NCBI RefSeq assembly: GCF_900149695.1
Contig: NZ_LT703003.1
Span: forward strand, 372,001-436,000
Direction: 5' to 3'
Length of the DNA: 64,000 bases
Source of the DNA: Anderseniella sp. Alg231-50
Lineage (GTDB): Bacteria > Pseudomonadota > Alphaproteobacteria > Rhizobiales > Aestuariivirgaceae
Shown: positions 43,259 to 63,508 of the stretch, piece by piece
Numbering within the stretch: the first letter of the stretch is position 1
Layout: every line of letters begins with the position of its first letter
Position numbers and translations under genes: made by a program
Notes under the pieces: model-generated
What the model saw: the letters and a program-made list of their open reading frames with translations, nothing else
Databases searched by the model: none
What the model was told of the DNA's origin: nothing

Positions 43259-43346
43259 AGGGAGCCTCCCTGTAAATTTCAATCGCTGGCCAGGCTCATC
43301 TGCCTGCGATTACGCTTTCGCGTGTCGGTAGCTTGTTAGCTCCGAC

Positions 43347-45471: not shown

Positions 45472-45523
45472 TCCAATGGCACATTATTCAACCAAGTCTC
45501 CATCCGTTCAGGAAGCCACTACA

Positions 45524-46114: not shown

Positions 46115-46152
46115 TCTTGCGTATTCGCTAATATCGTTTCAGCAAATTCATC

Positions 46153-46185
46153 AAAGGTCCCTGAGATACCCTCTCAGGGGCCTTT
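46153..46185 (+). terminator. Terminator of the tadE operon
   Basis: AAAGGTCCCTGAGA pairs with TCTCAGGGGCCTTT (one G-T pair) around five bases; followed by ACTTTT, a weak T tail. Confidence 0.85.
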
Positions 46186-46282
46186 ACTTTTGCGCCCTGC
46201 ACCGTCAAACACTCTACACTGATTGATTGTTTCGCCAGTCTCCAGAAGTGGATGCTGCGCCCAGGCGGTGTTGATACTGATC

Positions 46283-47581: not shown

Positions 47582-47625
47582 ACTGCCGGTGAGTGATAGC
47601 TGGAGGTTTCCGACGCAGCACCTGC

Positions 47626-48066
47626 TCAGTTTTTCGCCCAGGCCTTTACGGGCAATCCACGTTTCAGCCATCCCGGCCCTGCGCTGGAACCGAACATGCC
47701 TTCAGACACATCGATGACATTGGTGAAGCCGGCAGTGGCCAGAATGCGTTGCATGTGAGCGCTGCGCCCTCCGACGGCACAAATCAGGGCAACCGGGTTG
47801 GCGCGATTGCCGCCCAGTGCCTTGGCGAGGTTTCTGACAAAGCCGGCTTCGTGCATGGAAATGGCAACAGCGGGCTTTGCCAGACCGGTCTGCTTCCACT
47901 CGCCGCGGGAGCGGATATCCACGAGCACGATTTCACCCCTGTCGGCTGCGGCCAGCGCATCCGGCGCAGACATTATACCGGATGACGCAAATGCCAGCGG
48001 AGCTGTGATACCGCCAAGCAAGGTTGAACCAATGAGCGCAATAATATGTCGGCGGGTCAAATTCAT
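47626..48066 (-). CDS. Exported single-domain rhodanese
   Basis: 146 residues. Signal sequence with NLTRRHIIALIGSTLLGG (possible twin-arginine or Sec signal), then one rhodanese domain with active-site loop CAVGGRS (Cys about 96) and VDIRSRGEWKQTG. Sulfurtransferase or sulfide-carrier function in the periplasm is likely; the partner is unknown. Stands alone between an MFS gene and an aminotransferase gene. Confidence 0.85.
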   Translation of the reverse strand: MNLTRRHIIALIGSTLLGGITAPLAFASSGIMSAPDALAAADRGEIVLVDIRSRGEWKQTGLAKPAVAISMHEAGFVRNLAKALGGNRANPVALICAVGGRSAHMQRILATAGFTNVIDVSEGMFGSSAGPGWLKRGLPVKAWAKN

Positions 48067-48430
48067 GGGTCAACCAGTGTCATCAAGGCTTGAAATTATC
48101 AAATCAAAGTTCCGCGATCAGCTTTGTGGCAGTTGCGCTTGTGCAGCGACCGACTTCATTTTGACACGTAGCTGTCATGCAAACCGGATAAGCCAACCGT
48201 CGTGCAAGGAAGGCGTCAGTTGCGTAAACCAAAAAAGAAACCTGTTTCCTGCACAAAATCAGGGGGCGCTTTGACTGAAGCAGTCGAAATGCCTGAACCC
48301 GATCGACTTGAAAGTGCGCGAGCAACGTCATTCATGCGCTTGAACGCATGCTGCTCTTGCCTTTAAGGACACCCGTGCCGGGAAAGCACCCGCCATTTCC
48401 CACCCCGCTCCTGGCACGGGACCTTGTTTT
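48067..48430. other. Intergenic region between rhodanese and aminotransferase genes
   Basis: About 360 bp. It contains the hairpin CATGCG-CTTGAA-CGCATG (48333-48350) within an outer GAGCA/TGCTC pairing, and a CCCGTGCC...GGCACGGG pair (48372-48420) with a long loop that may end the aminotransferase transcript. No coding evidence was found. Confidence 0.4.
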
Positions 48431-49612
48431 TCACACAGATGCGCTGATCAGGCCGTGCATGCGCGCAAGAGCTTCTTCGATTTCGTCAAGGCCGGCGGCA
48501 TATGACAGGCGCAGATAGCCCTTGCCGTTGTTCCCGAAACTGTCACCGGGTATCAGCGCCACATTGGCTTCCATCAGCAAACGATCCGCAAGCTGCTTTG
48601 AGCCGATACCGGTTCCGGTGATGTTGGGAAACGCGTAAAAGGCGCCACCGGGTACCCGGCAGGTGACCCCCGGCATGCTGTTGAGACCGGCGACAACCAC
48701 ATCCCGGCGCTGCGCAAATGTTGCACGCATCCGGTCGATCTCGTCCATGGGGCCTTCAATGGCCGCAAGGCCGGCGAACTGGGCGGCAACATTGACGCAG
48801 GAATGATCGACGGTAATCAATCCGCGCACCGCGTCGACCAGCTGTGCCGGCCAGATGCCGTACCCCAGCCGCCACCCGGTCATGGCAAAGGTCTTCGACC
48901 ACCCGTCGAGCAGGATGACCCGGTCTGCCAGCGCCGGAAACTGCAGCAAAGAGCGAAAGCCTGATCCTTCAAACACCAGGTGCGAATAGATTTCGTCCGA
49001 CAGGATTGCCACCTGAGGATGCGCTTCCAGGCCTTTTGCCAGCCTGTCCAGTTCGCCCGTTTCAACCACGCCGCCGGTCGGGTTGGCGGGTGAATTGATG
49101 ATAATCAGGCGTGTTGCCGGTGTAATCTGGGACAGCACCTCGTCGGCGTCGAAGCCAAAATTCCGGTCTTCACGAATGGCATATGGAACCGGCCCTGCCG
49201 ACGCCGCCTTTATGGCTTCGCGATAGGGCGGAAATCCGGGATCAGGATACAGGATTTCGGTCCCTGCCCCGCCGAATACCATGCAGGCAAAGAAGATCGT
49301 GACCTTGCCACCCGGCACAATGACCACCCGATCAGCCTCGACCGGCACATCATAGCGGGTGGCCACGCTGCTTGCGACGGCGTCGCGCAAAGACGGCATG
49401 CCAACCGGGGAAGTGTATCCGTGCGGACCATCCCTGACCGCCCGGAGCCCGGCGTCCAGCACGTGGGCCGGTGGTGAAAAGTCCGGCTGGCCAATGCCGA
49501 GATTAATTACCGGACGGCCTTCCGCCTTCATCTTCAACGCCTTGTCGAGAACGAAGAATGCGCCCTCTTCTTCCAGGCTTGCGACCGCGGGATTCAATTT
49601 GAGATGGCTCAT
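48431..49612 (-). CDS. PLP-dependent class I/II aminotransferase
   Basis: 393 residues, fold type I. Motifs: NLGIGQPDFSPP, NSPANPTG (about 173-180), DEIYSHLVFEG (about 206-216), and the PLP lysine in DGWSKTFAMTGWRLGY (Lys about 240). Resembles aspartate/aromatic aminotransferases; substrate not known. ATG at 49612 with AGGAAC upstream. It lies 19 bp after the EamA transporter gene on the same strand, so the pair is an operon; the transporter might export or import the amino acid concerned. Confidence 0.92.
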   Translation of the reverse strand: MSHLKLNPAVASLEEEGAFFVLDKALKMKAEGRPVINLGIGQPDFSPPAHVLDAGLRAVRDGPHGYTSPVGMPSLRDAVASSVATRYDVPVEADRVVIVPGGKVTIFFACMVFGGAGTEILYPDPGFPPYREAIKAASAGPVPYAIREDRNFGFDADEVLSQITPATRLIIINSPANPTGGVVETGELDRLAKGLEAHPQVAILSDEIYSHLVFEGSGFRSLLQFPALADRVILLDGWSKTFAMTGWRLGYGIWPAQLVDAVRGLITVDHSCVNVAAQFAGLAAIEGPMDEIDRMRATFAQRRDVVVAGLNSMPGVTCRVPGGAFYAFPNITGTGIGSKQLADRLLMEANVALIPGDSFGNNGKGYLRLSYAAGLDEIEEALARMHGLISASV

Positions 49613-49631
49613 GAAAGTTCCTGTTTCTAAG

Positions 49632-50540
49632 TCATGTCGATCGCAAGGTTCGGCGCTTGGTGACCTGCTCGCGATAATAGACATACAGGCCGCTGGACAC
49701 CACGATGCCGGCGCCGACCAGCGTGTGAATGTCCGGCACATCGCCGAACACGACATAACCGACAATGATCATCCAGATTATCTGGGTGTAGATAAACGGC
49801 GCCAGTGTAGGCGCAGGTGCCATGGTGTGTGCCTTGATCAGCATGTGATGGCCGATACCGCCGGCCAGCCCCATCAGCAGCATCAGGGCGACAAGTCCCC
49901 AGACCGGCACATGCCAGTTGAGGATACCCATCGGCATGGCAAGAGCGGAGCCGACAATCGAGGGCAGCAGTAACGATACCAGCGCCGGGTCACGACCGCC
50001 GATCTTGCGGGTGATGATCTGGTACAGCGAGGTGATAACCGCCACCGTCACCGACAGCAGCATGGCCCAGTGAAAACCGTCAGCGCCGGGCCGGATGATC
50101 AGCAACACACCGAGAAACCCGATGACCACCGCCGCCCAGCGACGCGGCCCGATCCGCTCGCCGAGCAAAAACGGCGACAGGGCGCAGACCCACAGCGGGT
50201 TTGAGAAGAATATGGCGGATGTCTGATCCAGGCGCAGATACTGCAAGGCAATGAAGTTCATCAGGGTCGAAGCGAACAGCAGGACACCGCGCAGCACCTG
50301 CAATCCGGGATGATGGGATTTGAAGGTCAGCGTGCCGGTCCACCACATCAGTCCCAGCACATACAGCAATGACAGGCTGTAGCGGGCAAACACCACCATC
50401 ATCGGCGGCACCGCGGCTGCCAGCAGATACTTTGCGCAGGCGTCTATGATGGTGAACGTGGCAACAGCGCCCACCATCAACACTATGCCGGTCGTGACAT
50501 TATCCGTCTGAGGCGACTGGGCACTGCCGGGTATTGCCAT
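49632..50540 (-). CDS. EamA/DMT-family transporter
   Basis: 302 residues with ten predicted helices in two EamA halves (about 17-145 and 160-290). Typical words are IFFSNPLWVCALSPFLLGE and FIYTQIIWMIIVGYVVFGD. Substrate unknown; many of this family move amino acids or metabolites. Start is ATG 50540 or GTG 50558. First gene of an operon with the aminotransferase; divergent from pcaDC. Confidence 0.88.
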   Translation of the reverse strand: MAIPGSAQSPQTDNVTTGIVLMVGAVATFTIIDACAKYLLAAAVPPMMVVFARYSLSLLYVLGLMWWTGTLTFKSHHPGLQVLRGVLLFASTLMNFIALQYLRLDQTSAIFFSNPLWVCALSPFLLGERIGPRRWAAVVIGFLGVLLIIRPGADGFHWAMLLSVTVAVITSLYQIITRKIGGRDPALVSLLLPSIVGSALAMPMGILNWHVPVWGLVALMLLMGLAGGIGHHMLIKAHTMAPAPTLAPFIYTQIIWMIIVGYVVFGDVPDIHTLVGAGIVVSSGLYVYYREQVTKRRTLRST

Positions 50541-50707
50541 GAAGAGAAGTCCGATCACTTTCAGCTGCCATAGGCGGGTGGCATGGCCAGGGTCTTTTCA
50601 GCCGTAAAGGCATGATGGGAATGCGTCCAGCCCAGAATCCGGTTTCAAGGTTTGACACACCCGGAATTTTACGATGTGACAGGATCAATGGAAAAAAGGA
50701 ACCGCCC

Positions 50708-51865
50708 ATGCCGTACGTGACACAAAGCGATGATTGCCGGATATTCTATCGCTCAGAAGGCCCGACAGATGCCCCAGCCATCATATTTTCCAACTCGCTG
50801 GGCTGTGACCACCTGATGTGGCAGGCACAGGCAGATGCCCTGAAGCACCGCTTCCGTGTCGTGCGATATGACCAGCGCGGCCATGGTGCGTCCGATGTGC
50901 CGGACGGCATGTACCCGCTGGAAAGATTAGGCGCAGATGTTATCGGAATCGCAGATCATCTGGGTCTCGACGAATTTCATTTCTGCGGGCTTTCCATGGG
51001 TGGATTGACCGGGCAATGGCTCGGCATCAATGCCGGCAGCCGGCTCACCACTCTCACGCTGGCTGATACATCGCCGCACTTCCGTCCGCCGGAGATGTGG
51101 GACCAACGCATGGACATGATCCGCCAGGGCGGCATGAGCGCCATATCCGACATGGTACTGGGCAGGTTTTTTACCGAGAGCTTCCATGAAAGCGATCCCG
51201 GCACGGTAAGCGATTTCCGCAGTGTCCTGGAGCAGATGGACCCGAAAGGCTATCTGGGATGCTCGGCCATGCTGAGAGAAGCCGACACGTTCGACGGCCT
51301 GAAAGAGATTACCACGCCGACACTGATCATTTCCGGCCGGCATGACCAGTCAACGCCGCCGGAGCGCGGTGAAATGATGGCTGCGGAAATTTCCTGCGCT
51401 GTCCACGTGGTCCTGGATGCAGCTCATGTGTCAAATGCTGAACGCCCGAACGACTTTACCCGCACGCTTGCAGGCTTCGTGAGCGCCGACACCTTGCCGA
51501 GCGATCACCGATTCACCTCCGGAATGAAACGCCGCAGAGCAGCACTGGGCGACGACTATGTAGATGCTTCGATTCGGAACCGAACCGAATTCAACGCCGA
51601 GTTTCAGGACATGATCACGCGCGGCGCCTGGGGCGAAATCTGGACCCGGCCGGGGCTGGACGAAACCACCCGCCGCATGCTGGTGCTGGCGATTTGCGCG
51701 GCGCTGTCGCGATGGGAGGAGTTCGACCTGCACCTGGCAGCGGCATTGCGCGCAGGTGTTTCGCAGGAGACCATTCGCGAAGTGCTGATGCAGACAGCCA
51801 TCTATGCCGGCGTGCCGGCAGCCAACACCGCGTTTGCCCGCGCCGGAAAGCAGTTGAAAACCTAG
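50708..51865 (+). CDS. pcaL: Fused 3-oxoadipate enol-lactonase / 4-carboxymuconolactone decarboxylase
   Basis: 385 residues catalysing two steps of the protocatechuate branch. The N-terminal alpha/beta-hydrolase domain (PcaD, about 1-260) has the nucleophile in GLSMGG (Ser96), acid in SGRHDQ (Asp213) and His240 in AAHVSN. The C-terminal PcaC domain (about 268-385) has YVDASIRNRTEFNAEFQDMI and EVLMQTAIYAGVPAANTAF. ATG at 50708 with AAGGAA upstream. No other pca gene is in the window. Convergent with the glutamine-synthetase-like gene. Confidence 0.9.
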   Translation: MPYVTQSDDCRIFYRSEGPTDAPAIIFSNSLGCDHLMWQAQADALKHRFRVVRYDQRGHGASDVPDGMYPLERLGADVIGIADHLGLDEFHFCGLSMGGLTGQWLGINAGSRLTTLTLADTSPHFRPPEMWDQRMDMIRQGGMSAISDMVLGRFFTESFHESDPGTVSDFRSVLEQMDPKGYLGCSAMLREADTFDGLKEITTPTLIISGRHDQSTPPERGEMMAAEISCAVHVVLDAAHVSNAERPNDFTRTLAGFVSADTLPSDHRFTSGMKRRRAALGDDYVDASIRNRTEFNAEFQDMITRGAWGEIWTRPGLDETTRRMLVLAICAALSRWEEFDLHLAAALRAGVSQETIREVLMQTAIYAGVPAANTAFARAGKQLKT

Positions 51866-51878
51866 ACGTCAGACAACA

Positions 51879-53336
51879 TCAGTAAAGGTCAAAATATTCC
51901 CGATGTTCCCAGTCCGTCACCTCTGACAGGAAGCGGGCAATCTCGGCGCGCTTGATGTGGATCAGGTAGTCCACGAACTTTTCGCCAAAGCGCCGCCGGA
52001 ACAGTTGAGACGCCTCAAGCGCGTCGACGGCATCCATCAGGTTGGTTGGCAGCATTGTTGCATCGGTTTTGTAGGGTGTATCTGCGGCAGGACCGGGATC
52101 GCGCTTGTCATCGATACCCTGCAACCCGGCCCAGACTTGCGCGGCCAGATGAAGATAGGGGTTGGCTGCAGCTTCCGCGGCCCGGTTTTCCACCCGTGTC
52201 GCCGGATCACCGGGACCGCCTATAGCCCGAACCATAACGCCCTTGTTGTCCCTGCCCCAGATCGCCCGGTCAGGGGCCAGCTGGAATGACTTGTAGCGCT
52301 TGTAGCCATTGATGGTGGGCGCCGCGAAAACGCTGGCCTCAACCGCATGGGCAAGCAGGCCCGCCGTATAATGCAGGCCCAGCAGCGACAGCAGGTCGCT
52401 ACCGGCTTCAGGCGTGAACAGGTTGTCGCCGGATGTCGCCGATAGCAGCGACTGGTGCACATGCCAGCCTGACGCGAACAGGTTTGCAACCTGTGGCCGG
52501 CACATGAAGGTTGCATGCAGGCCCTGGCGCCGGCAGACCTGTTTCACCATGGAGCGAAACAGGGTCATGGCGTCGGCTGCCTGCACCGCCTGCATGGGAG
52601 CAAAGGTAAACTCCACCTGGCTGGGGCCGAACTCGCATTCGATCGAGCGTACCGGCAGATTGAGCGCCACGCACGCCTTGCGCAACACCTCCGTCACCGG
52701 CTCCAGCTGGTCGCCACGTGCCTCGGTCAGGTACTGAAAGCCGTGCGTCATCAGCGAGACATCCGGCACGGCTCCCGGCTGCCCGGCATCTTCCGGGCGC
52801 CTGTTCCAGTCGTCGACTTGCAGAATGTGGAATTCAGCCTCGAGGCCGAAGCGTATATCCAGTTCCCTGTTTGCAAGTTCTGCCTCGGCATCACGGAGTT
52901 TCCGGCGCACACAAAACGGCACAGGTTTCCCGTCGGTGAAAAACAGATCGCACAACAGCCAGCCGCAGCCTTCGACCCAGGGCAGTACACGAAAGGTTTC
53001 GGGGTCCGGCAACATCATCATGTCTCCGGCACCTTCCATCTCGGCCATATCAAGGCCGGCGCCGGCCTGCCAGACGGGGAAGACGGTGCGATGCGAGGTG
53101 TCCTTTGCCAGCAGGGTCGAGGTCATGGCACAGCCATTGGCCAGCAGGCCTGCAGCCTGCGCCGCCATCAGTGTCTTGCCGCGCAGCACCCCGTGCTGGT
53201 CCACAAAGGCAAGCCGCACGGTGTCCAGGCCATGATTTTCGATTTGCTCCAGCACAGTTGCGCATGCCGTGCGTCGATCAGCACTGTCCATGCCGGCAAG
53301 TGCGGCCAAGCCTTCGCGCCCTACATCACTCATCAA
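51879..53336 (-). CDS. Glutamine-synthetase-like ligase (gamma-glutamyl-amine type candidate)
   Basis: 485 residues of the glutamine synthetase superfamily: an N-terminal beta-grasp domain and catalytic domain with metal residues in GLEAEFHI and ECEFGPSQVEFTFAP, the His loop ASGWHVHQSL, and the ENRAAEAAANPYLHLAAQVWAGL region (shortened: ENR...ANPYL signature). It is not GlnA itself; the length and sequence resemble PuuA/GlnT/TdnQ-like enzymes that join glutamate to an amine. Its stop lies 13 bp from pcaDC on the convergent side, and the start is 1 base from the Rieske gene stop, so the two minus-strand genes form one operon. Confidence 0.85.
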   Translation of the reverse strand: MMSDVGREGLAALAGMDSADRRTACATVLEQIENHGLDTVRLAFVDQHGVLRGKTLMAAQAAGLLANGCAMTSTLLAKDTSHRTVFPVWQAGAGLDMAEMEGAGDMMMLPDPETFRVLPWVEGCGWLLCDLFFTDGKPVPFCVRRKLRDAEAELANRELDIRFGLEAEFHILQVDDWNRRPEDAGQPGAVPDVSLMTHGFQYLTEARGDQLEPVTEVLRKACVALNLPVRSIECEFGPSQVEFTFAPMQAVQAADAMTLFRSMVKQVCRRQGLHATFMCRPQVANLFASGWHVHQSLLSATSGDNLFTPEAGSDLLSLLGLHYTAGLLAHAVEASVFAAPTINGYKRYKSFQLAPDRAIWGRDNKGVMVRAIGGPGDPATRVENRAAEAAANPYLHLAAQVWAGLQGIDDKRDPGPAADTPYKTDATMLPTNLMDAVDALEASQLFRRRFGEKFVDYLIHIKRAEIARFLSEVTDWEHREYFDLY

Positions 53337-54656
53337 CTAGTTCCCGGCCGTTGCGCTTGCCCACGAGCACCCGTCGCGGCGGTCGGCATCCCGGTCCCGC
53401 CAGACCGCCTGCCAATCTGCATCCGGCGCAATGGCATCAACGGCAACGGGACCCTTTGTGTTCAATGCTTCGCCATTGGGAATGCCTGGCAAATGACCGC
53501 CTTCGCCCACTGCATCAATCGCCCGGCGCAACATGCGCCGATAGGCAATGATCGCCTTGTCGGACGTGGCAAGGTGTTCGTTGGTGCGGTCGAAAACCGG
53601 CCCCGGGCTTTCTACGGCCCACTGATCATGGACATTTATGTCGAGCCCCATGCCGGTATAGGTCTCAGCTTCCTGTTCAGCCGGGTTGAACCCGTAGTTG
53701 TTGCGCTTGTTTTTCAGCGGTGCGTAGTCCGGCAGGCGGTGTTCGGCAAGCCGCTGTTCACGCATCAGCTGCTTGTTCACCGGGCCGGCGAAGCTGGTGA
53801 ACATCGAATACCAATAGCAGGTCTCGTCATCCACCGGCACATGCCACTGGGTGATGGTCATATCGTTGGACATCGGGATGCAGATGGCTTCGGGAAATAT
53901 CTGGTTGGTCACGCGCACATGGGTGCGGCCGTCATCCAGGTGCCTGAGCGCAATCAGGCGCAATCCGTAGTCGGTTTCTTCCACCTCTATGTCGGGCCGT
54001 GGATATTCGCGCAGCAACTGCGTCATCGGCATTTCCGTATTGGCGGCAGTGTCGCGGAACTGCTTGCCGTAACTGTCGGCCGGGTCTTCATCCTGCAGGA
54101 ACCGATGCAGGAAGGATGCATGAACCGGATCGATGCCCACTTCCATGGCCTGCAGCCAGTTGCACTCCCACAAACCCTTGAAGGCAAACACGTGTGTATC
54201 CGGGGCAACAAAACAGTCCAGTTCGGGAAATGGCGGCGGTGCGCCCTCGCCCATGAAGGCAAAGACAATGCCGTTTTTCTCCACGACCGGATAGGATGCG
54301 GTCTTTATCTGCTCGTGCATGGTGCTGCCTTCAGGCTCGCCGGGCTGTTCGACACACTGGCCGGAGCGGTCGAAATGCCAGCCGTGAAACGGGCAGCGCA
54401 GGCCGTTGTCCTCGCGCCGGCCGTGACACAGGTCAGCGCCACGATGCGGACAATGACGCCCGATCAGGCCCAACTCACCGTCATTGTCGCGAAACAGCAC
54501 CAGGTCTTCGCCAAGCAGGCGCACCGGCACGACGGGGCGAGGGCCTTCAAGTTCATCGCTCAAGGCAGCCGGTTGCCAGTATTGCCGCATCAGCTTGCCG
54601 CACGGCGTGCCGGAGCCGGTTTGCGTAATGAGATCGTTTATGTCTTTCGACAGCAT
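53337..54656 (-). CDS. Rieske aromatic-ring-hydroxylating oxygenase, phthalate-dioxygenase type
   Basis: 439 residues. Rieske [2Fe-2S] ligands Cys69 and His71 (CPHRG) and Cys88 and His91 (CPFHGW); mononuclear iron site in the motif NWLQAMEVGIDPVHASFLH with His179 and His184 and bridging Asp176. The sequence fits the phthalate-dioxygenase-like oxygenase class, which draws electrons from a separate reductase; none is in the window. ATG at 54656 with AGGA upstream is the true start. It is the first gene of an operon with the glutamine-synthetase-like gene and divergent from a flavin hydroxylase (149 bp between starts). Confidence 0.9.
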   Translation of the reverse strand: MLSKDINDLITQTGSGTPCGKLMRQYWQPAALSDELEGPRPVVPVRLLGEDLVLFRDNDGELGLIGRHCPHRGADLCHGRREDNGLRCPFHGWHFDRSGQCVEQPGEPEGSTMHEQIKTASYPVVEKNGIVFAFMGEGAPPPFPELDCFVAPDTHVFAFKGLWECNWLQAMEVGIDPVHASFLHRFLQDEDPADSYGKQFRDTAANTEMPMTQLLREYPRPDIEVEETDYGLRLIALRHLDDGRTHVRVTNQIFPEAICIPMSNDMTITQWHVPVDDETCYWYSMFTSFAGPVNKQLMREQRLAEHRLPDYAPLKNKRNNYGFNPAEQEAETYTGMGLDINVHDQWAVESPGPVFDRTNEHLATSDKAIIAYRRMLRRAIDAVGEGGHLPGIPNGEALNTKGPVAVDAIAPDADWQAVWRDRDADRRDGCSWASATAGN

Positions 54657-54805
54657 AGGTGGGCGTCCTGTTTTCTGGTCTGATGCCGCACACGTTAGGC
54701 AGGCAGCGCGCATAGCGCAAGTTCCGGGCAAGGCTTGCCGAAACCGGGGTTTGCGGGTTGTATGCGGATGACCAACCAACACCGACCTGAACCGGGGCAA
54801 CTAAC

Positions 54806-56002
54806 TTGAACACCAAACCTTATCTGATCGCCGGTGGCGGCATAGGCGGCTTTGCAGCCGCGCTGGCGCTGGCGCAAAAGGGCATTGAAAGTATCGTCAT
54901 CGAACGTGAGGAGGAACTGCGCGAAGCCGGTGCCGGTATTCAGCTCGGCCCGAACGGGTTTCGCATGTTCGACACGCTTGGCGTAACCGACGCGATCCGG
55001 GCCAATGCGGTGTTTCCCGAGGCGCTGGTCATGATGGATGCGCTCGACGGGTCACAAGTGACACGGGTACCGCTAAATACACCTGAATTCACTGACCGCT
55101 TTGAATACCCCTATGGCGTGATCTACCGGCCGGACCTGCATGACACTTTCATCGACGCGGCCAGGGCAACCGGCAGGGTGACCGTGAGGCTGGGCGCGAA
55201 GGTCGAGGCCTATGAAGACACCGGCAACGGTGTGCGCGTAACCCTGGGCGATGACAGCACAATCGAGGCGCAAGCCCTGATTGGTGCCGACGGCCTATGG
55301 TCGAAAGTTCGCGAGACAATCGTTTCGGACGGCCGCCCCCGGGTTTCGGGCCACATTGCCTATCGGGCCGTGCTGCCGGAAGCCGACGTGCCCGACGCAA
55401 ACCACAGGAACGAAGTGATCCTGTGGGCCGGACCCAAGACCCACCTGGTGCACTACCCTTTACATCGCGGCGACATTTTCAACCTGGTATCGGTATTTCA
55501 TTCCGATGCCTATGAAGAAGGCTGGGATGTGTATGGCGACATCAGCGAACTGAACCAGCGATTTGCCGGACAGAGAACGGAAGTGATGGGCATGCTCGAC
55601 AAGATCGAGAGCTGGCGCATGTGGGTGTTGTGCGACCGCGATCCTGTGAAAAATTGGAGCAAGGGCCGCGTTACGCTGCTCGGCGATGCCGCGCACCCCA
55701 TGCTGCAATATCTGGCGCAGGGCGCATGCATGGCGACCGAAGACGCAGTATGCCTGGCGCACCACGTGGCGGCACACGGCGATCCGGCGGATGCTTTCCT
55801 CGCCTACCAGGCCGACCGGTATCTGCGCACCGCGCGGGTGCAGATGACGGCCCGGCTCTATGGGGATATCTATCACGCCGCCGGTCCGGTGGCGGAACTC
55901 AGGCAGATGATGCTGTCGGGCAGAACGGCGCAACAGGCCTATGACGGCATGAGCTGGCTGTACGCGGGCGTCAATGCGCGCGGCCAGCAGATCCTGCAGT
56001 AA
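54806..56002 (+). CDS. FAD-dependent hydroxylase, 3-hydroxybenzoate 6-monooxygenase-like
   Basis: 398 residues of the aromatic hydroxylase group A. FAD motif AGGGIGGFAAALALAQKG at the start, the DG motif ALIGADGLWSKVRE, and GDAAHPMLQYLAQGACMATED, whose LQYLAQGA segment I associate with 3-hydroxybenzoate 6-hydroxylases and salicylate hydroxylases. Start is TTG at 54806. Divergent from the Rieske gene, so both may act on the same pathway. No gentisate dioxygenase is in the window. Confidence 0.85.
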   Translation: MNTKPYLIAGGGIGGFAAALALAQKGIESIVIEREEELREAGAGIQLGPNGFRMFDTLGVTDAIRANAVFPEALVMMDALDGSQVTRVPLNTPEFTDRFEYPYGVIYRPDLHDTFIDAARATGRVTVRLGAKVEAYEDTGNGVRVTLGDDSTIEAQALIGADGLWSKVRETIVSDGRPRVSGHIAYRAVLPEADVPDANHRNEVILWAGPKTHLVHYPLHRGDIFNLVSVFHSDAYEEGWDVYGDISELNQRFAGQRTEVMGMLDKIESWRMWVLCDRDPVKNWSKGRVTLLGDAAHPMLQYLAQGACMATEDAVCLAHHVAAHGDPADAFLAYQADRYLRTARVQMTARLYGDIYHAAGPVAELRQMMLSGRTAQQAYDGMSWLYAGVNARGQQILQ

Positions 56003-56045
56003 ACCGTTTTGTAACAAAGCCATTGCCAAGGCAAACGCCGATGCA

Positions 56046-56309
56046 AGAGCACATCCGGTTCAAATAGAAACAATTGACCGGTTTTTTGCGGTCTCTGGCA
56101 AGGCGCGGGTCCCGCCGTGATCTGGTTGACCGCAAGGGAGCCGTAACGCAGTCCAGTGGGCGCAGAAATCCGGCCTTCGGTGGACCAAATCAGTCCATCG
56201 GCGTTGTTGCAAAGCTTGCCCGATGCACCGCATCGCGCTTCACTTTGCGCCTAGCCGAGTGAACTGATTTGGTACCATCAAATGCTTCTATTTGAACCGG
56301 ATGTGCTCT
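56046..56309. mobile_element. MITE-like element with 24-bp perfect terminal inverted repeats
   Basis: The 24 bases at 56046-56069 are the exact reverse complement of 56286-56309, and pairing continues imperfectly inward for about 8 more bases. Inside lies a second, non-concentric inverted repeat, ACCAAATCAGT (56184-56194) with ACTGATTTGGT (56263-56273), and a small GATGC/GCATC hairpin. No protein is encoded with conviction. The flanks show no clear target duplication. It separates the flavin hydroxylase gene from the LivK-type gene 70 bp downstream. Confidence 0.7.
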
Positions 56310-56379
56310 AGGATCAATTCGAGGCTGAACCTGCCATCAACGGCAATCACACAAGAATTGAGTATCAGGGAGTAGAAAC

Positions 56380-57573
56380 ATGATCCGCAAAATTCTCGCC
56401 GGCGCGCTGGCGCTTGGCATTTCGGCAACGGCAACCGCCGCCATTGCCGCCGACAAGGTGAAGATCGGCGTCATTACCACGCTGACCACACCGGCGGCCG
56501 TTCTGGGCGCTGAACAGATGAACGGCATCAACCTGGCCATGGAGCACCTGGGCGGCAAGATGGGCAGCACGGAAGTTGAGATCATCGCGGAAGACGACGG
56601 CTTCAGACCCGACATCGGCAAGCAGAAAGCCGACAAGCTGGTGTCTCAGGACGATGTCGACATCGTGACCGGCATTATCTGGTCGCACGTGTTGCTGGCG
56701 TCGAAGAAATCCATCCTGGAAGGCGGCAAGTTCCTGATCGGCGCCAATGCCGGCACTTCGCATGTGGCCGGCAAGGAATGCCACGAGAACTTCTTCTCCT
56801 CGTCCTGGCAGAACGACATGGTGCCGAAAGCGCTCGGTGAAGTGCTCAATCAGCGCGGCGTGAAGTCGCTCTACATCATGGCGCCGAACTACGCTGCCGG
56901 CAAAGACATGGTGGCCGGCGTGAAAAGCTCTTTCAAGGGCGAAGTCAAGGGCGAGGATTTCACCAAGTGGGGCAAGGATGCCCAGCTTGATTTCTCGGCT
57001 GAGCTTGCAAAAGCGTCCGCCTCGGGTGCTGAAGCGATCTTCGTGTTCTATCCGGGCAAGGCAGGCGGCGCGTTCCTGAAGCAGTTCGGCCAGGCCGGTC
57101 TTGCCGGCAAGATGCAGTTCTTCAACGTGTTCTCGGTGGACGGACTGTCGCTGCCGAAATTCCAGGCTGGCGGCATCAAATCAGTGCTTGGTGCTTATGA
57201 CACCATGCAGTGGAGCCCTGACCTGGACAACGCAGCCAACAAGAAGTTCGTGGCCGACTATCGTGCCAAGCATGAGAGGTATCCGAGCTTCTATGCGGCA
57301 CAGGCCTATGATGCGATCAACCTGATCAATTCAGCCGTGGTCGCCACCGGCGGCAATGTCAAGGACAAGGATGCGTTCCGGGCGGAGCTGAAAAAGGCCA
57401 ATTACAAGTCCGTGCGCGGTGACTATTCCTATGGCAACAACCACTTCCCTGTTCAGAACTACTATCTGCGCCAGGTTGTGGAAGGTCCGGACGGCAAGTG
57501 GACCCACAAGACGGTATCAACGGTTTATGAAGCGACCGGGGATGACCACGCCAAGGATTGCGCAATGAAGTAG
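56380..57573 (+). CDS. LivK-type periplasmic binding protein, first copy
   Basis: 397 residues, type I periplasmic binding protein for branched-chain amino acids or aromatic compounds. Sec signal peptide (IRKILAGALALGISATATAA), then KIGVITTLTTPAAVLGAEQ, and the C-terminal lobe segment RYPSFYAAQAYDAINLI. It is close to the second copy at 61250. A good terminator follows, so it is monocistronic and separate from any permease. The position in an aromatic-catabolism region suggests an aromatic ligand. Confidence 0.88.
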   Translation: MIRKILAGALALGISATATAAIAADKVKIGVITTLTTPAAVLGAEQMNGINLAMEHLGGKMGSTEVEIIAEDDGFRPDIGKQKADKLVSQDDVDIVTGIIWSHVLLASKKSILEGGKFLIGANAGTSHVAGKECHENFFSSSWQNDMVPKALGEVLNQRGVKSLYIMAPNYAAGKDMVAGVKSSFKGEVKGEDFTKWGKDAQLDFSAELAKASASGAEAIFVFYPGKAGGAFLKQFGQAGLAGKMQFFNVFSVDGLSLPKFQAGGIKSVLGAYDTMQWSPDLDNAANKKFVADYRAKHERYPSFYAAQAYDAINLINSAVVATGGNVKDKDAFRAELKKANYKSVRGDYSYGNNHFPVQNYYLRQVVEGPDGKWTHKTVSTVYEATGDDHAKDCAMK

Positions 57574-57599
57574 GCGGGATTTCCGTCTCGACAATCCAG

Positions 57600-57633
57600 C
57601 CCGCTCTCAAGCAGTATTGAGGGCGGGTTTTTT
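57600..57633 (+). terminator. Terminator after the first LivK-type gene
   Basis: CCCGCTCTCAA pairs with TTGAGGGCGGG (one mismatch) around six bases, followed by six T. Confidence 0.93.
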
Positions 57634-57646
57634 GTGCTGAAGGAGA

Positions 57647-58897
57647 ATGTCGTTGAAGGTCGTAGTTGTTGGAGGCGGTATCGGCGGGCTGGCGGCGGCC
57701 CTCATGCTGCATGATCGCGGCATTGAAGCTGAAGTCTACGAGCGCTCGGAAGAAATCCGCGAACTCGGTGTGGGCATCAACACCCTGCCGCATGCGATCA
57801 GGGAACTGGCCAATATCGGCCTGCTCGATGCGCTGGACCAGGTCGCCATCCGCACCCATGAACTGATCTACCAGAACCGGCAGGGTCAGACCATCTGGCA
57901 GGAACTGCGCGGCACCGATGCCGGCCTCGACATGCCGCAATTTTCTATTCATCGCGGCCGCCTGCAGGGTGTGCTGCGCGATGCGGTGATCGACCGGCTG
58001 GGGCCGGACGCTATCAGGACAGGCCATGCATGTACCGGGGTGAGGCCGGGCGACGGGTCCGCGACGGCAGTCTTTCAAACGGCCGAGAGGGAAGAATTGC
58101 TGGCGGAAGGCGATGCCGTCATCGCCTGTGACGGCATTCACTCGGTTGTGCGCAAGCAGTTCTATCGCAATCAGGGCGACCCGAAATGGAACGGCATCAT
58201 GTTGTGGCGCGGCGCGTGCCTGTGGGAACCGTTCGGGACCGGACGATCCATGGTGATCGCCGGCGGCATGGACGCGAAACTGGTGCTGTACCCGATTGCC
58301 AACGATAACCGTGCCGACGGCAAGGTGCTGATGAACTGGGCGGTGGCGGCAAAGATGGGGGATGGCTCAACACCGATGCCGCGGCGCGAAGACTGGAACC
58401 GCGAAGGTCTCATGAGCGAGCTCCTGCCGTTCGTCGAAGACACGTTCACACTGGACGTGCTGGACCCACTGGCCCTTATACGCGAGACCGGGACATTTTA
58501 CGAATATCCCATGTGTGACCGGGACCCGGTCGAGCAGTGGACATTCGGCACGGTGACCTTGCTCGGGGACGCCGCGCATCCGATGTATCCGGTGGGCTCG
58601 AACGGCGCCAGCCAGGCGATACTCGACGCCCGCTGTCTGGCCGACAAGCTTGCTGATTGCGGCGGTGACACGAGCGCTGCCCTGCTGGCCTACGAAGCAG
58701 ACCGCCTGCCTGCCACGTCGGAGATCGTGCGGCAAAACCGCGGCGGCGGACCGGAGCGGGTCATCGACCTGGTCAACCAGCGTGCACCCGACGGGTTCGA
58801 TACGCTTGAGGATGTCGCCGGACACGAAGAGCTGGAAGCAGTGGTGCGCGGCTATCAGAAGACCGCGGGCTTCGACAAGGCTTCAGTCAACCGCTAA
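57647..58897 (+). CDS. Flavin-dependent monooxygenase, PhzS-like
   Basis: 416 residues. FAD motif VVVGGGIGGLAAALMLHDRG, ACDGIHSVVRKQFY and GDAAHPMYPVGSNGASQAILD. The NGASQAILDA segment recalls PhzS-type flavin oxygenases acting on aromatic compounds. The ATG at 57647 lies one base after AAGGAGA, too close for a normal ribosome site; TTG at 57653 has normal spacing (7 bp), so the true start may be TTG. It lies just after the LivK terminator and is convergent with the HxlR gene. Confidence 0.85.
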   Translation: MSLKVVVVGGGIGGLAAALMLHDRGIEAEVYERSEEIRELGVGINTLPHAIRELANIGLLDALDQVAIRTHELIYQNRQGQTIWQELRGTDAGLDMPQFSIHRGRLQGVLRDAVIDRLGPDAIRTGHACTGVRPGDGSATAVFQTAEREELLAEGDAVIACDGIHSVVRKQFYRNQGDPKWNGIMLWRGACLWEPFGTGRSMVIAGGMDAKLVLYPIANDNRADGKVLMNWAVAAKMGDGSTPMPRREDWNREGLMSELLPFVEDTFTLDVLDPLALIRETGTFYEYPMCDRDPVEQWTFGTVTLLGDAAHPMYPVGSNGASQAILDARCLADKLADCGGDTSAALLAYEADRLPATSEIVRQNRGGGPERVIDLVNQRAPDGFDTLEDVAGHEELEAVVRGYQKTAGFDKASVNR

Positions 58898-58937
58898 TCG
58901 AGCCAGGCTTTTCCCAAAATGATCAACCTGGTGAGCT

Positions 58938-59363
58938 TCATTGCAAGCCGGCGTCCTTTCGGATCTTCGCCTGCAGTTCAGTGATCAGTCTGTCACGGTC
59001 GGTTTCAAATTTCTCCAGGTACTCTGCGCCTATGCCGTTGTCGCTGGTCCTGAGGCCCCAGACGGTCATTTCCACCAGCATTGGCACCAGGCTGACCGCC
59101 AGTTCGGTCGGCAGGTAGATGAACTGACGGGCATCTGTCGGGTCACGTTTCTTGGTGACCAGCTTGCGATGCTCAAGCCGCTTCAGTCTTTCTGCAAGCA
59201 CATTGGTGGCGATGCCTTCGTCGCCCTCCAGCAGTTCCCTGTAGCGCTGTCGCGATTTCAACATCAGGTCGCGCAGGACAATCAGCGTCCAGCGGTCCCC
59301 GAAGATTTCCAGGGCAAAACTGATCGGGCAATCGGAGCGGCGCGGTTCAGAGGACGGAGGCAT
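58938..59363 (-). CDS. HxlR-family transcriptional regulator
   Basis: 141 residues. Conserved Cys12 in SDCPISFALEIFGDRWTLIV, and the winged helix LLEGDEGIATNVLAERLKRL typical of HxlR/MarR-like regulators. ATG at 59363 is preferred over the TTG at 59390. Divergent from the GFA-family gene; two palindromic sites lie in the shared promoter region, so it probably represses itself and that gene. Confidence 0.9.
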   Translation of the reverse strand: MPPSSEPRRSDCPISFALEIFGDRWTLIVLRDLMLKSRQRYRELLEGDEGIATNVLAERLKRLEHRKLVTKKRDPTDARQFIYLPTELAVSLVPMLVEMTVWGLRTSDNGIGAEYLEKFETDRDRLITELQAKIRKDAGLQ

Positions 59364-59380
59364 GTGATTTTCCAAATATT

Positions 59381-59401
59381 TCACTTGCAATATGCAAGCA
59401 A
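59381..59401. promoter_or_regulatory. Putative HxlR operator 1
   Basis: TCACTTG at 59381-59387 and CAAG at 59395-59398 around a central palindrome CTTGCAATATGCAAG. It has the same half-sites as operator 2, and the two are 31 bp apart from centre to centre (three helical turns). Confidence 0.6.
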
Positions 59402-59411
59402 ATTAATATGA

Positions 59412-59432
59412 TCACTTGTAGATAGCAAGTGA
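59412..59432. promoter_or_regulatory. Putative HxlR operator 2
   Basis: Perfect palindrome TCACTTG-N7-CAAGTGA. It ends three bases before the AGGAGG ribosome site of the GFA gene, so binding there would block its transcription start. Confidence 0.65.
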
Positions 59433-59447
59433 ACAGGAGGAATGACA

Positions 59448-59846
59448 ATGACCATTGCTGGTGGATGCCTATGCGGGACTGTCCGGTACACGTGTGCTGA
59501 GGAAACCGGTGGAGGCCATTGCCACTGTAACGACTGCCGCAAGACCAGCGGCACTGGACACGGTTCACACATGATAGTTCCCGAGGCCGGGTTCGAAATG
59601 ACCGGTGAGATCAGGTTCTTCGACAAGCCCGCCGACAGCGGCAACATGGTCAGCCGCGGTTTCTGCCCGGCGTGCGGTTCTGCTATCTATTCGACCAATT
59701 CATCCATGCCCGGCATGGTTTTTGTCAGGGCGTCCAGCCTCGACGATCCGGACAACTTCAAACCGCAGATGCGGGTCTATACCGACCGCGCCGCCACATG
59801 GGATCACATGGACGCGACGCTTCCCGGCTTCGCAACAATGCCGTAG
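59448..59846 (+). CDS. GFA-family (CENP-V/GFA domain) protein
   Basis: 132 residues with the seven zinc-binding cysteines of the family: GGCLCGTVRY, CHCNDCRKTSG and FCPACGSAIY. Relatives were once called glutathione-dependent formaldehyde-activating enzymes; many bind glutathione or aldehyde adducts, but the function is often unknown. ATG at 59448 has AGGAGG seven bases upstream; ATG at 59442 is too close. Regulated by the divergent HxlR protein by inference. Confidence 0.9.
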   Translation: MTIAGGCLCGTVRYTCAEETGGGHCHCNDCRKTSGTGHGSHMIVPEAGFEMTGEIRFFDKPADSGNMVSRGFCPACGSAIYSTNSSMPGMVFVRASSLDDPDNFKPQMRVYTDRAATWDHMDATLPGFATMP

Positions 59847-59980
59847 ACAGAAGACAGGCCGGAAAGCGTTCGGGCGGGCCTGTGAAAACCCGCAACTTGC
59901 GCAGCCACGCACACTATTCAACCGGGAAACCTGCAAACGCCATAACTGTGACTGACGCAGTCAACTCTCCGGATTGCTGA

Positions 59981-60550
59981 TCACAAAGCAGGCCTTATGT
60001 CATGATCGTTGGCTGCGTAGATATCCAACAACTGGTCAAAATCGATGCCATCTGCCTGGGCTGCCGCCAGCGGATGATCAGAGCTTTCAAGTTCAATTGT
60101 CGGGCGTTGTCTTTCGTCGAGTGGATAAACCTGGCATTTCATGTTGAGCGTGTCCGGATACCCCTTCAGGCGGTTGGAAAACCATCCAAACCAGGGCCCC
60201 AGGTGGCCCTGCTTGCCGTCGTCAAATGTGTTGACGCAAATGTCGAAATTCGTTTTCGAAAGTGTGCTCCAAACACCAAAACCAAACGTCTGTCCATCTG
60301 AGCCGAGCAATGGTAATTCCAGCACGCAACGGATAAAGAAATTCTCTCCGTCGATGATGCAAAAGTCTTCCGTCAATATGTTATCGGAACTGAAAAGCTT
60401 CTCATTTGGCAGCCACTCCCTTGACCCTTGCCAGAAATCCGGCGCATCGCATGCCAGGTCGAAAACTCCATTGTGTTGCAGACCGCAGCAAGGACAGCGC
60501 CAGTCACCGCTGCTCAAAAGCGACCACCTGCTGTCAATGGTCAAATCCAT
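59981..60550 (-). CDS. DUF2199 domain protein
   Basis: 189 residues. An N-terminal CPCCG zinc-type motif (WRCPCCGLQHNG) followed by DAPDFWQGS, VLELPLLGSDGQTFGFGVW and GPWFGWFSNRLKGYPDTL matches DUF2199, a widespread family of unknown function. Soluble, with no signal peptide. Stands alone between the GFA gene (convergent) and a cupin gene. Confidence 0.8.
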   Translation of the reverse strand: MDLTIDSRWSLLSSGDWRCPCCGLQHNGVFDLACDAPDFWQGSREWLPNEKLFSSDNILTEDFCIIDGENFFIRCVLELPLLGSDGQTFGFGVWSTLSKTNFDICVNTFDDGKQGHLGPWFGWFSNRLKGYPDTLNMKCQVYPLDERQRPTIELESSDHPLAAAQADGIDFDQLLDIYAANDHDIRPAL

Positions 60551-60589
60551 TACCTAACTCTCTTGTAAGCTAGCGGGATGATGACTCAC

Positions 60590-61177: not shown

Positions 61178-61249
61178 GCATATTCAGTAGCTCGTCGGGA
61201 CGAAACAAGACGGCACTCAGATACGAGAACACTCGGGAGGAGTTTGATA

Positions 61250-62431
61250 ATGTTGAAGAAGACAGGAATTGCGGCGCTTGGTCTGGCGCTGATGGCATCA
61301 GCCTCGTACGCTGCCGACATCAAGATCGGTTACGTGACGACACTGACCACACCGGCTGCGGTTCTCGGCAACGACATGAAGGACGCCGTCAACCTGGCGG
61401 TGGAGCATCTTGACGGCAAGATGGCCGGAAAATCCGTTGAAATCATTTTTGAGGACGACGGCTTCAAGCCCGAGATCGGCAAGCAGAAAACCGACAAGCT
61501 GGTACAGCAGGACGATGTGCCGATCGTTGCCGGTTATATCTGGTCCAACGTGCTGCTGGCATCGGCCAAGTCTGTGCTGGACGCGGGCAAATTCCTGATC
61601 TCATCGAATGCCGGACCGTCGCAGATTGCCGGCAAGCTGTGCAACGCAAACTTCTTCTCGACGTCGTGGCAGAACGACCAGACTCCGATGGCGATGGGCG
61701 AAGTGTTGAACCAGCAGGGCGTCAAGTCACTGTACCTGCTCGGCCCCAACTATGCCGCCGGCAAGAACATGATGACCGGCGTGGAGCGCACCTTCAAGGG
61801 CGAGATCAAGGGCAAGGACCTGACCAAATGGCCAAGCCAGCTTGATTTTTCCGCTGAACTGGCAAAAGCCAAGGCATCCGGCGCGGAAGCCATTTTCGTG
61901 TTCTATCCGGGCAAGGCCGGCGGCGCGTTCATCAAGCAGTACCAGCAGGCAGGTCTGAAGGGCGAACTGGATTTGTATTCGGTATTTACCGTGGATGCCA
62001 TTTCGCTGCCGAAACTGCAGGCAGCCAAGCTTGAAGGTGTCTTGGGTTCGCGGCTGACGCAGCAATGGGACCCGACACTGGACAACGCAGCCAACAAGAA
62101 GTTCGTTGCCGACTTCCGTGAAAAGTACAAGCGCTACCCGTCGTTTTATGCGGCACAGGCCTATGACACAATCAACCTGATCGCATCCGGTGTTGAAGCT
62201 GTCGGCGGCGACATGAGCAAGACCGACGAACTGCGCGCAGCCATGGCCAAGGCCGATTATGCGTCGGTGCGCGGCAAATATACCTATGGCAAGAACCACA
62301 TGCCGATACAGAACTTCTATCTGCGTGAAGTTGTTGCCGACGATGCCGGGAACTGGACGACAAAGGTGGTCAAGACGGTTTACGAAAACCACGTTGATCC
62401 ATATGTCGGCGAGTGTCCGTTGGCCAAATAA
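61250..62431 (+). CDS. LivK-type periplasmic binding protein, second copy
   Basis: 393 residues and very similar to the first copy: shared KIGYVTTLTTPAAVLG/KIGVITTLTTPAAVLG starts, IFVFYPGKAGGAF, LDNAANKKFVAD and YPSFYAAQAYD. Sec signal KKTGIAALGLALMASASYAAD. ATG at 61250 with GGGAGGAG seven bases upstream. It is directly upstream of livH-livM and so is likely the main receptor of that importer. Ligand not known. Confidence 0.9.
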   Translation: MLKKTGIAALGLALMASASYAADIKIGYVTTLTTPAAVLGNDMKDAVNLAVEHLDGKMAGKSVEIIFEDDGFKPEIGKQKTDKLVQQDDVPIVAGYIWSNVLLASAKSVLDAGKFLISSNAGPSQIAGKLCNANFFSTSWQNDQTPMAMGEVLNQQGVKSLYLLGPNYAAGKNMMTGVERTFKGEIKGKDLTKWPSQLDFSAELAKAKASGAEAIFVFYPGKAGGAFIKQYQQAGLKGELDLYSVFTVDAISLPKLQAAKLEGVLGSRLTQQWDPTLDNAANKKFVADFREKYKRYPSFYAAQAYDTINLIASGVEAVGGDMSKTDELRAAMAKADYASVRGKYTYGKNHMPIQNFYLREVVADDAGNWTTKVVKTVYENHVDPYVGECPLAK

Positions 62432-62587: not shown

Positions 62588-63508
62588 ATGAGCACACTGT
62601 TTTTCATTCAGTTCCTGAACGGGCTGCAACTCGGCGTATTGCTGTTCCTGCTGGCAGCAGGCCTGACGCTGGTGTTCGGCATCATGGACTTCGTCAACCT
62701 GGCGCACGGCTCGCTGTACATGGTCGGTGCGTTTTTCTGCGCCACGCTGACATTCTGGACCGGGTCGTTCGTGTGGGCGGTGCTGCTGGCAATCCCGCTG
62801 ACCGCGCTGGTCGGGCTGGCGCTGGAGATGGGGGTGATCCGACATCTGTACCAGCGCGACCATCTTGACCATGTACTGGCCACCTTCGGGTTCATCCTGA
62901 TCGCGGACACGCTCGTGCACCTGATCTGGGGCCCGGAAGGCATTGCCATCCCGCTGCCCGACTACCTGCAGGGCCAGGTGCAGATACTGCCGGGCATCAT
63001 CTTTCCGACTTTCCGCCTGGTGATTATCAGCTGCGGACTGCTGGTGGCATTCGGGCTCTACTGGCTGATCACGCATACCCGTCTTGGCATGCTAATCCGG
63101 GCCGGCGCATCCAACCGGACCATGGTATCGGCACTCGGCATCGACATAAAAACCCTGTTTACGGCGGTTTTTGCCCTTGGTGCGGTGTTGGCCGGGCTGG
63201 CCGGCATGCTGATCGCACCGATCACCGAAGCAACCATCGGCATGGGTAATGACATTATCATCACCGCGTTCGTCGTGATCATCGTGGGCGGTATCGGTTC
63301 CATGAAAGGTGCCTTCATCGGCGCCCTGATCATCGGACTGATCGATACGCTGGGCCGTTCTTTCCTCGACGATATCCTGAAATTGTTCATCCCCGTCAAT
63401 GCGGCGGAAACCGCAGGCCCGGCAATTTCGTCAATGCTGATCTATCTCATCATGGCTGCTGTGCTGGCGTTCCGCCCGCAAGGCCTGTTTCCACCAAAGG
63501 TGCGCTAG
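62588..63508 (+). CDS. livH: Branched-chain amino acid-type ABC permease LivH
   Basis: 306 residues and about eight membrane helices. LivH pattern: FFIQFLNGLQLGVLLFLLA, LVFGIMDFVNLAHGSLYMVG, and the cytoplasmic loop RAGASNRTMVSALGID. ATG at 62588; the nearest G-rich run (GGGG) ends two bases before it, so the ribosome site is unusual. Followed directly by livM: stop and start are adjacent. Confidence 0.93.
   Translation: MSTLFFIQFLNGLQLGVLLFLLAAGLTLVFGIMDFVNLAHGSLYMVGAFFCATLTFWTGSFVWAVLLAIPLTALVGLALEMGVIRHLYQRDHLDHVLATFGFILIADTLVHLIWGPEGIAIPLPDYLQGQVQILPGIIFPTFRLVIISCGLLVAFGLYWLITHTRLGMLIRAGASNRTMVSALGIDIKTLFTAVFALGAVLAGLAGMLIAPITEATIGMGNDIIITAFVVIIVGGIGSMKGAFIGALIIGLIDTLGRSFLDDILKLFIPVNAAETAGPAISSMLIYLIMAAVLAFRPQGLFPPKVR

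Follow-up and report, generated by a model that had tools for sequence, protein, structure and literature searches.

A widespread sadAB-type ligase-oxygenase gene pair in Anderseniella sp. Alg231-50, probably directed at acidic arylamines

The gene pair considered here, a glutamine synthetase (GS)-like ligase gene and a Rieske oxygenase gene of Anderseniella sp. Alg231-50, has its closest described counterparts in bacteria degrading 4-aminobenzenesulfonate (sulfanilate). It lies on a stretch of 64,000 nucleotides (contig NZ_LT703003.1, positions 372,001 to 436,000), hereafter the window, from whose first letter all positions are counted. The sad operon of Hydrogenophaga intermedia PBC, discovered via transposon mutagenesis, was reported to encode the 4-aminobenzenesulfonate 3,4-dioxygenase SadA, the glutamine synthetase SadB and the ferredoxin SadC, and Novosphingobium resinovorum SA1 is a well-studied degrader of the same compound (PMC5632844). 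In Novosphingobium Rr 2-17, glutamine synthase genes adjoin two such oxygenases; SadB was hypothesised to act in the removal of the amino group after hydroxylation, and its natural substrate was left open (PMC3704786). Since 4-aminobenzenesulfonate is man-made, the natural substrate of sadA and sadB is a question raised in both reports (PMC3704786, PMC5632844).

In a second set of related systems the amine is glutamylated first. NpaA1, a 1-naphthylamine-glutamylating enzyme placed in the class of glutamyl organic amine synthetases (GoaS), acts ahead of oxygenation, the dioxygenase being inactive on the free amine (PMC11335346). With the aniline and naphthylamine systems (atdA, tdn, dca, npaA1-A5) the window pair shares a GoaS ligase, a Rieske oxygenase and, by prediction, glutamylation as the first step. 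The label dca is the one that we take to designate the operon of plasmid pLME1. Those of these systems that were examined have two-subunit (alpha/beta) oxygenases and operons that include a class-I glutamine amidotransferase gene, whereas the window oxygenase is single-component, and their ligases carry hydrophobic residues where the window ligase has a lysine. The single-component architecture is that of the phthalate 4,5-dioxygenase family (7fjl, 7fhr; LigXa_C), from which the window oxygenase differs in falling within a separate subfamily tied to a ligase.

A preliminary description of the locus, made from its letters alone, did not recognise the combination of genes. It is the sadA-sadB arrangement described for 4-aminobenzenesulfonate (PMC5632844, PMC3704786), and the window pair is a member of this already known kind, not a new combination. 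The sad genes of PBC (sadA, sadB, sadC, sadD) specify the same two kinds of protein, a likeness of gene kinds, the PBC sequences themselves lying outside the comparison. The order oxygenase-ligase is also that of plasmid pSA3 of strain SA1, where ferredoxin and reductase genes are found about 4 kb further on and where the pair probably represents the SA1 sulfanilate genes. Likewise, the order oxygenase-ligase-ferredoxin was found in locus L116, probably from Hydrogenophaga sp. PBL-H3. The window ligase is 54.0% identical to the SA1 ligase and 42.9% to the L116 ligase, and Lys78 is common to all three. Unlike these arrangements, the window pair has neither ferredoxin nor reductase gene adjoining it; a PcaDC fusion gene and a 3-hydroxybenzoate 6-hydroxylase (3HB6H)-like gene stand there instead. 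On pSA3, folP, encoding dihydropteroate synthase, was observed about 8.4 kb upstream of the pair oxygenase gene (L204, 1313-2143), which fits a possible interference of sulfanilate-type compounds with p-aminobenzoate use.

Our comparisons suggest, with a probability of about 0.7, that the pair is a sadAB-type module that first glutamylates an acidic arylamine and then dioxygenates it. At the expense of ATP, the ligase would form an amide between glutamate, through its gamma-carboxyl, and an aromatic amine that also bears an acidic group. The oxygenase, receiving electrons from proteins encoded elsewhere in the genome, would dioxygenate the ring of the glutamylated compound at the carbon carrying the amide and at the adjacent one, and glutamate and nitrogen would then be released to yield a catechol acid. 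With p-aminobenzoate as the amine, this product would be protocatechuate, whose breakdown could be continued by the genome's pcaHG and the adjacent PcaDC.

The two genes lie on the same strand, oxygenase first and ligase directly after (Table 1). The oxygenase stop codon TAG (53339-53337) is followed by TTG 53336, to which the ligase frame is open (51879-53336), and by ATG 53333, giving a spacing of 0 to 3 nt; the likely oxygenase start is ATG 54656 (439 aa) rather than 54800. Conservation of the pair was analysed in 149 loci, of which 143, counting the window (locus L118, 42001-61000), have distinct ligase sequences. This set leans to Bradyrhizobium because a named scan contributed the best 80 of 580 matches, and the locus of one plasmid match (H11) lies outside it. 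The loci, 4-29 kb long, were compared with 40 control regions of 19 kb each, at round positions chosen by hand on large contigs of the same genomes. The oxygenase gene was directly upstream of the ligase gene in 124 of the 143 loci (122 immediately upstream on the same strand and two overlapping by a few bases), and a pair-type oxygenase was found in none of the 40 control regions. The remaining 19 loci comprised ten with alpha/beta partners, four with the oxygenase apart or on the opposite strand (L060, L205, L207, L208), one with a broken oxygenase (L062) and four in which none was seen (L048, L054, L065, L188), two of these last at a contig end. In L060, a 400-aa open reading frame (ORF) was observed on the same strand between the oxygenase and ligase genes.

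Two further samples were in agreement with this distribution. Among 385 genomes of the class, searched at E<=1e-90 for the ligase and E<=1e-100 for the oxygenase, 34 had the ligase; two of these were alpha/beta-partnered only, leaving 32 with ligases of the lysine-bearing side described below. The oxygenase was present in 30 of these 32 genomes versus one of the 353 others, and in two of the 30 it was on a different contig from the ligase. The two genomes lacking an intact oxygenase had broken pieces (G082) or none (G331), and a distant oxygenase (45%) with no ligase was found in G382. The pair was thus present in about 8% of the sampled class genomes (30/385), and it occurs in many of the Bradyrhizobium records among the matches listed. 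Among plasmids, the 13 records with the highest-ranked 13 ligases (47.6-60.2%) are also those with the 13 oxygenases of at least 59% identity; the next oxygenase stood at 41% (60 of 110 records listed), and a shorter ligase match of 47.5% (H37) was in another record. The preliminary description had placed the two genes one base apart in one operon and had named a lack of conservation elsewhere as contrary to its proposal. The ORFs are as it described them. The pair recurs in more than 100 loci, more than chance would give, and the plasmid, class-sample and locus counts show strong conservation, ruling out the contrary outcome.

The closest solved structure to the window ligase is NpaA1 (8wwu, 417 bits; next best 174 bits), and the two are 41% identical; identity to PuuA is 23%. 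The ligase matches NCBIfam models for type III GS, gamma-glutamylputrescine synthetase and GlnA, all far under the cut-offs. A tree of 70 rows was built, with support given by the Shimodaira-Hasegawa-like approximate likelihood ratio test (SH-aLRT). It omits the 80 genome loci of the named scan, eight rows removed for thinning (L044, L054, L055, L074, L102, L103, L105, L106), the incomplete gene calls L062, L072 and L077, the locus entry of the window itself (L118) and the unannotated plasmid loci L220, L222 and L223; the sequences of IpuC and AtdA1 are not among its rows. The window ligase, NpaA1 and the pLME1 ligase fell in one superclade of 63 rows (support 97). Outside it were GlnA, PuuA and a further five GS-family proteins encoded by the same genome, several of these outgroup branches being long. 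PuuA was counted as GoaS by the describers of that class (PMC11335346) and stands on a long branch in the present tree. Within the superclade, one side of 47 rows (support 93) comprised 45 ligases with a single-component oxygenase, including that of the window, and two without one nearby; the other side of 15 rows (support 89) comprised 12 with alpha/beta dioxygenases and three with neither. One more alpha/beta row, L066, was in the superclade yet outside both sides. Only three changes of the oxygenase label were needed on this tree, versus a shuffled mean of 20.6.

Two hallmarks of GoaS are the loss of the GSI catalytic Asp50' and of the Glu-flap glutamate, written Glu357 (PMC11335346). At the GlnA 51 column, the window ligase has Pro and NpaA1 Asn, so that Asp50' is lost as described for GoaS. 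Column 358 of GlnA is Glu in both, so that the alignment disagrees with the published number of the flap residue; column 328, which we take to be the flap Glu, is Leu in both. Of the columns taken to be metal and glutamate ligands of GlnA, the window ligase keeps six with an acidic residue or His and two of the three with Arg. Judged by its place in the tree, the window ligase is a predicted member of the arylamine-glutamylating GoaS family, distinct from GlnA and PuuA; a clustering with either, which the preliminary description had named as the outcome contrary to its proposal, was not seen.

The amine tunnel of NpaA1 is reportedly lined by the loop V68'-M81' with Phe75, plus Phe86 and Trp235, and variants F75A and F86A kept 15-25% of the naphthylamine activity and almost none of the aniline activity (PMC11335346). 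The extra N-terminal loop of GoaS at this tunnel (the '15th motif') corresponds to residues 66-92 of the window ligase and to a gap in GlnA, and Lys78 (codon 53105-53103) occupies the position of Phe75. In the tree set, this position is Lys in each of the 45 rows paired with the oxygenase, and all 13 alpha/beta rows have Leu, Phe, Met or His. Over the 143 distinct loci, Lys was found in 132 and Leu, Met or Phe in the ten alpha/beta loci, one fragment being without the region. These include 74 distinct loci of the named scan, all with Lys, which are closest relatives and no random sample, retrieved with search patterns that do not extend over the position-75 residue. Additionally, 43 of the 45 paired rows have Arg or Lys at NpaA1 position 80, and 39 have His at position 79. 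Among the ligases examined, Lys at position 75 is a sequence marker that sets the Lys side apart from the aniline type, and it suggests a tunnel fitted to an arylamine bearing an acidic group. Because this Lys is invariant, such a substrate is favoured over a neutral, aniline-like one.

The oxygenase matches PF00355 (72.8 bits) and LigXa_C (PF19301, 93 bits), and phthalate dioxygenase is among its three best solved relatives. All 15 aligned oxygenases have C69 H71 C88 H91 and D176/H179/H184/D356, the presumed ligands of the Rieske centre and of the iron. These pair oxygenases share 55-73% identity, and the next plasmid relatives reach at most 41% among the matches listed. The protein thus appears to belong to a subfamily of its own within the phthalate dioxygenase (PDO) type, going with the ligase, and this pairing argues against phthalate as its substrate. 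Neither the alpha nor the beta dioxygenase cluster had a member near the pair (window 42001-61000), and the preliminary description was correct both in this respect and in the phthalate-dioxygenase-like, single-component type. Electron supply is not encoded beside the oxygenase, one reductase homologue (45%) being found elsewhere in the genome. As to a counterpart of sadC, one ferredoxin query gave no match in window 42001-61000; since the same query matches 20 of 143 loci, a ferredoxin gene is not a constant feature of pair loci.

As to the natural acidic arylamine, p-aminobenzoate, of which sulfanilate is the sulfonate analogue, may be proposed tentatively as the leading candidate, at somewhat less than even odds, with protocatechuate as its product. 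Caballeronia insecticola and Methylobacterium nodulans each have a gene for the 4-hydroxylaminobenzoate lyase PnbB near the pair (201 and 214 bits). By tblastn, PnbB was found in five pair loci and a nitroreductase in four, three of them the same loci. At the genome level, PnbB was over the cut-off in 13 of 385 class genomes, namely 7 of the 32 pair genomes versus 6 of the 353 others (Fisher p=1.7e-5). In Palleronia, pcaHG and genes of the following steps adjoin the ligase. Apart from the window PcaDC itself, a search of its own genome gave no full-length match of that kind. Another contig of this genome carries pcaHG as well as a gene for an enzyme cleaving 3-oxoadipate, and a third has a pcaB-like gene (314 bits, under the cut-off of 356). 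A gamma-glutamyl-GABA-hydrolase-like gene, found in three pair loci but not in window 42001-61000, is a possible counterpart of the amidotransferase of the aniline pathway. The window genome also has a class-I amidotransferase gene at 2 kb from pcaHG, which was considered and is not claimed as an AtdA2 equivalent: its similarity to such proteins is weak and local (28% over 145 residues, best E 1e-10), and its match over cut-off is to a general family. Within the literature searched, which left subscription papers mostly outside, no paper on a p-aminobenzoate pathway via this pair was found.

Several observations weigh against the proposed route or its substrate. The genome-level association of PnbB carries no correction for genome size. 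Of the seven co-occurring genomes, just one (G355) has PnbB in the vicinity of the ligase, and PnbB was not found in the window genome. Compared with the 40 control regions, no significant enrichment near the pair was seen for pcaH (5/143 versus 2/40, p=0.65), PcaDC (7/143 versus 0/40, p=0.35, not significant) or PnbB (5/143 versus 0/40, p=0.59, not significant), and support for protocatechuate from a pca enrichment near the pair is therefore absent. Two amidotransferase queries taken from other pair loci had no match in window 42001-61000, the aniline-type protein not being among the queries, and a search of the 1.5 kb around the reductase homologue gave no ferredoxin homologue. The SA1 and L116 ligases share Lys78 and Arg83 with the window ligase, not His82. 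The link between the pSA3 pair and sulfanilate is itself inferred. The evidence as a whole is drawn from sequences, and the published guess for SadB is of the opposite order, the amine being removed after hydroxylation (PMC3704786).

Among other explanations, the one that survives best is that the pair acts on a different acidic arylamine, such as 3-aminobenzoate, aminosalicylate or an aminophenyl-alkanoate, here perhaps feeding the 3HB6H-like enzyme and the gentisate route. The 3HB6H-like gene is indeed divergent from the pair, with a homologue 55% identical in L115, and the genome possesses a gentisate dioxygenase; however, the gene of that dioxygenase, although on the same contig, is at a distance of about 2 Mb, and the flavoprotein, the window aside, occurs in just 1 of 142 loci (L115), which makes such a substrate unlikely. 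The same count rules out the flavin hydroxylase as a core member and does not bear out its inclusion in the route by the preliminary description, so that its membership in the system is doubtful.

The pair might instead attack neutral anilines (aniline, chloroanilines) in the manner of AtdA or NpaA, the phthalate-type oxygenase replacing the alpha/beta dioxygenase, and it was to such an amine that the preliminary description leaned. The ligase does share the GoaS superclade with NpaA1 and retains its amine-binding acids Glu232 and Glu234. However, Phe75 of NpaA1, needed for aniline activity, is Lys in all 132 Lys-side loci covering it, and the published substrate of this pair type is 4-aminobenzenesulfonate (PMC5632844). 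Neutral anilines are accordingly improbable, and less likely than an acidic amine given the invariant Lys. Little chance is likewise given to the hypothesis of the sad discoverers, in which a SadB-type ligase acts after the oxygenase to strip the amino group from a hydroxylated intermediate. According to PMC3704786, that proposal came from experiments with gene deletions and transposons; opposed to it are the conserved active-site columns of the ligase and its homology to NpaA1, which glutamylates before oxygenation. Finally, an ordinary glutamine, polyamine or methylamine ligase beside an unrelated oxygenase is extremely improbable, since the NCBIfam matches that would suggest it lie far under their cut-offs and, with the tree position outside GlnA and PuuA, rule out a glutamine or putrescine ligase, and since the co-occurrence of ligase and oxygenase is near-complete. 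The glutamylation-first module for an acidic arylamine remains the preferred reading.

Table 1. Features of the ligase-oxygenase locus and its surroundings in the window
Feature	Position	Strand	Basis or remark
PcaDC fusion (3-oxoadipate enol-lactonase and 4-carboxymuconolactone decarboxylase)	50612..51865	+	NF051488 over cut-off
SadB-like GS-family ligase (GoaS, Lys side)	51879..53333	-	ATG 53333; PF00120 259 bits, NpaA1 8wwu match, tree
Amine-tunnel loop, residues 66-92 (numbered from TTG 53336)	codons 53061..53141	-	alignment to NpaA1 loop V68'-M81'
SadA-like single-component Rieske oxygenase (PDO/LigX type)	53337..54656	-	PF00355, LigXa_C
3-hydroxybenzoate 6-hydroxylase-like flavoprotein	54806..56002	+	divergent from pair; PRK08163, 4bjy
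LivK-type substrate-binding protein	56380..57573	+	PF13458 240 bits
Second FAD monooxygenase	57647..58897	+	closest solved structures 2rgj/3c96, 274 bits
HxlR-type regulator	58938..59390	-	adjoins second FAD monooxygenase
Second LivK-type binding protein	61244..62431	+	ORF list; resemblance to first LivK judged by eye
LivH-type permease	62588..63508	+	PF02653 128 bits

On the oxygenase side, the assignment of the divergent gene as 3HB6H-like, already made in the preliminary description, was upheld by the match to PRK08163 (3-hydroxybenzoate 6-monooxygenase; 515 bits versus a cut-off of 459) and by 264 bits to 4bjy. On the ligase side, the PcaDC fusion gene (NF051488, 428.6 bits versus a cut-off of 390) is convergent on the pair and likely starts at ATG 50708. 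A large ORF antisense to ligase and oxygenase (52515-54683, plus strand) was treated as a shadow ORF. The second FAD monooxygenase, PhzS-like by its best solved relatives 2rgj/3c96, has a single match in the 142 other loci, 29% identical, in L115. Beyond the window edge, LivH is followed by a LivM-like permease and two ATPases. Further away in the window, Tad/Flp-type pilus genes were observed at 36542-46111 (secretion ATPase, secretin with pilus N-terminal domain, TadE/TadF-like protein). Two tandem SBP_bac_5 peptide-binding-protein genes, then permease and ATPase genes, were observed at 21918-25585; the tandem ORFs overlap if their first start codons are taken.

Some transport and regulatory genes recur near the pair. 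Relatives of the first LivK were matched by tblastn in 29 of 143 loci, the window counted, versus 0 of 40 controls; a Liv-type permease was found in 63 versus 3, and an IclR-type regulator in 78 versus 0. In the window, the 3HB6H-like gene occupies the divergent place beside the oxygenase in place of the IclR gene. A small CHMI/tautomerase-like gene stands after the ligase or elsewhere close to the pair in 13 of 143 loci and in none of the 40 controls (p=0.075; for example L207 13368-13706 and L208 15433-15786). It is possibly an extra pathway member, and it had no match in window locus 42001-61000. In L038 and L102-L109, from several Bradyrhizobium-like genomes, the pair stands between benzoyl-CoA (box) pathway-like genes and a Liv transporter, the labels BclA, BoxR and BoxC being a reading of the sequences by eye, without hidden Markov models.

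What is added here to the known sadAB kind is its wide distribution, the lysine marker, the view of SadB as a glutamylating ligase acting before oxygenation, unlike the published guess, and a specific substrate hypothesis. The comparison offers a short list of candidates for the natural substrate, namely acidic arylamines with p-aminobenzoate first. It is conceivable, although the balance is slightly against it, that the pair represents an undescribed and widespread natural p-aminobenzoate catabolism (for example from folate breakdown), combining a lysine-gated GoaS subfamily with a dedicated phthalate-type oxygenase. If true, sulfanilate degradation by SadAB would be a side use, the real substrate being the look-alike p-aminobenzoate. 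With the pair in so many of the sampled class genomes and Bradyrhizobium records, a defined substrate would therefore annotate many genomes.

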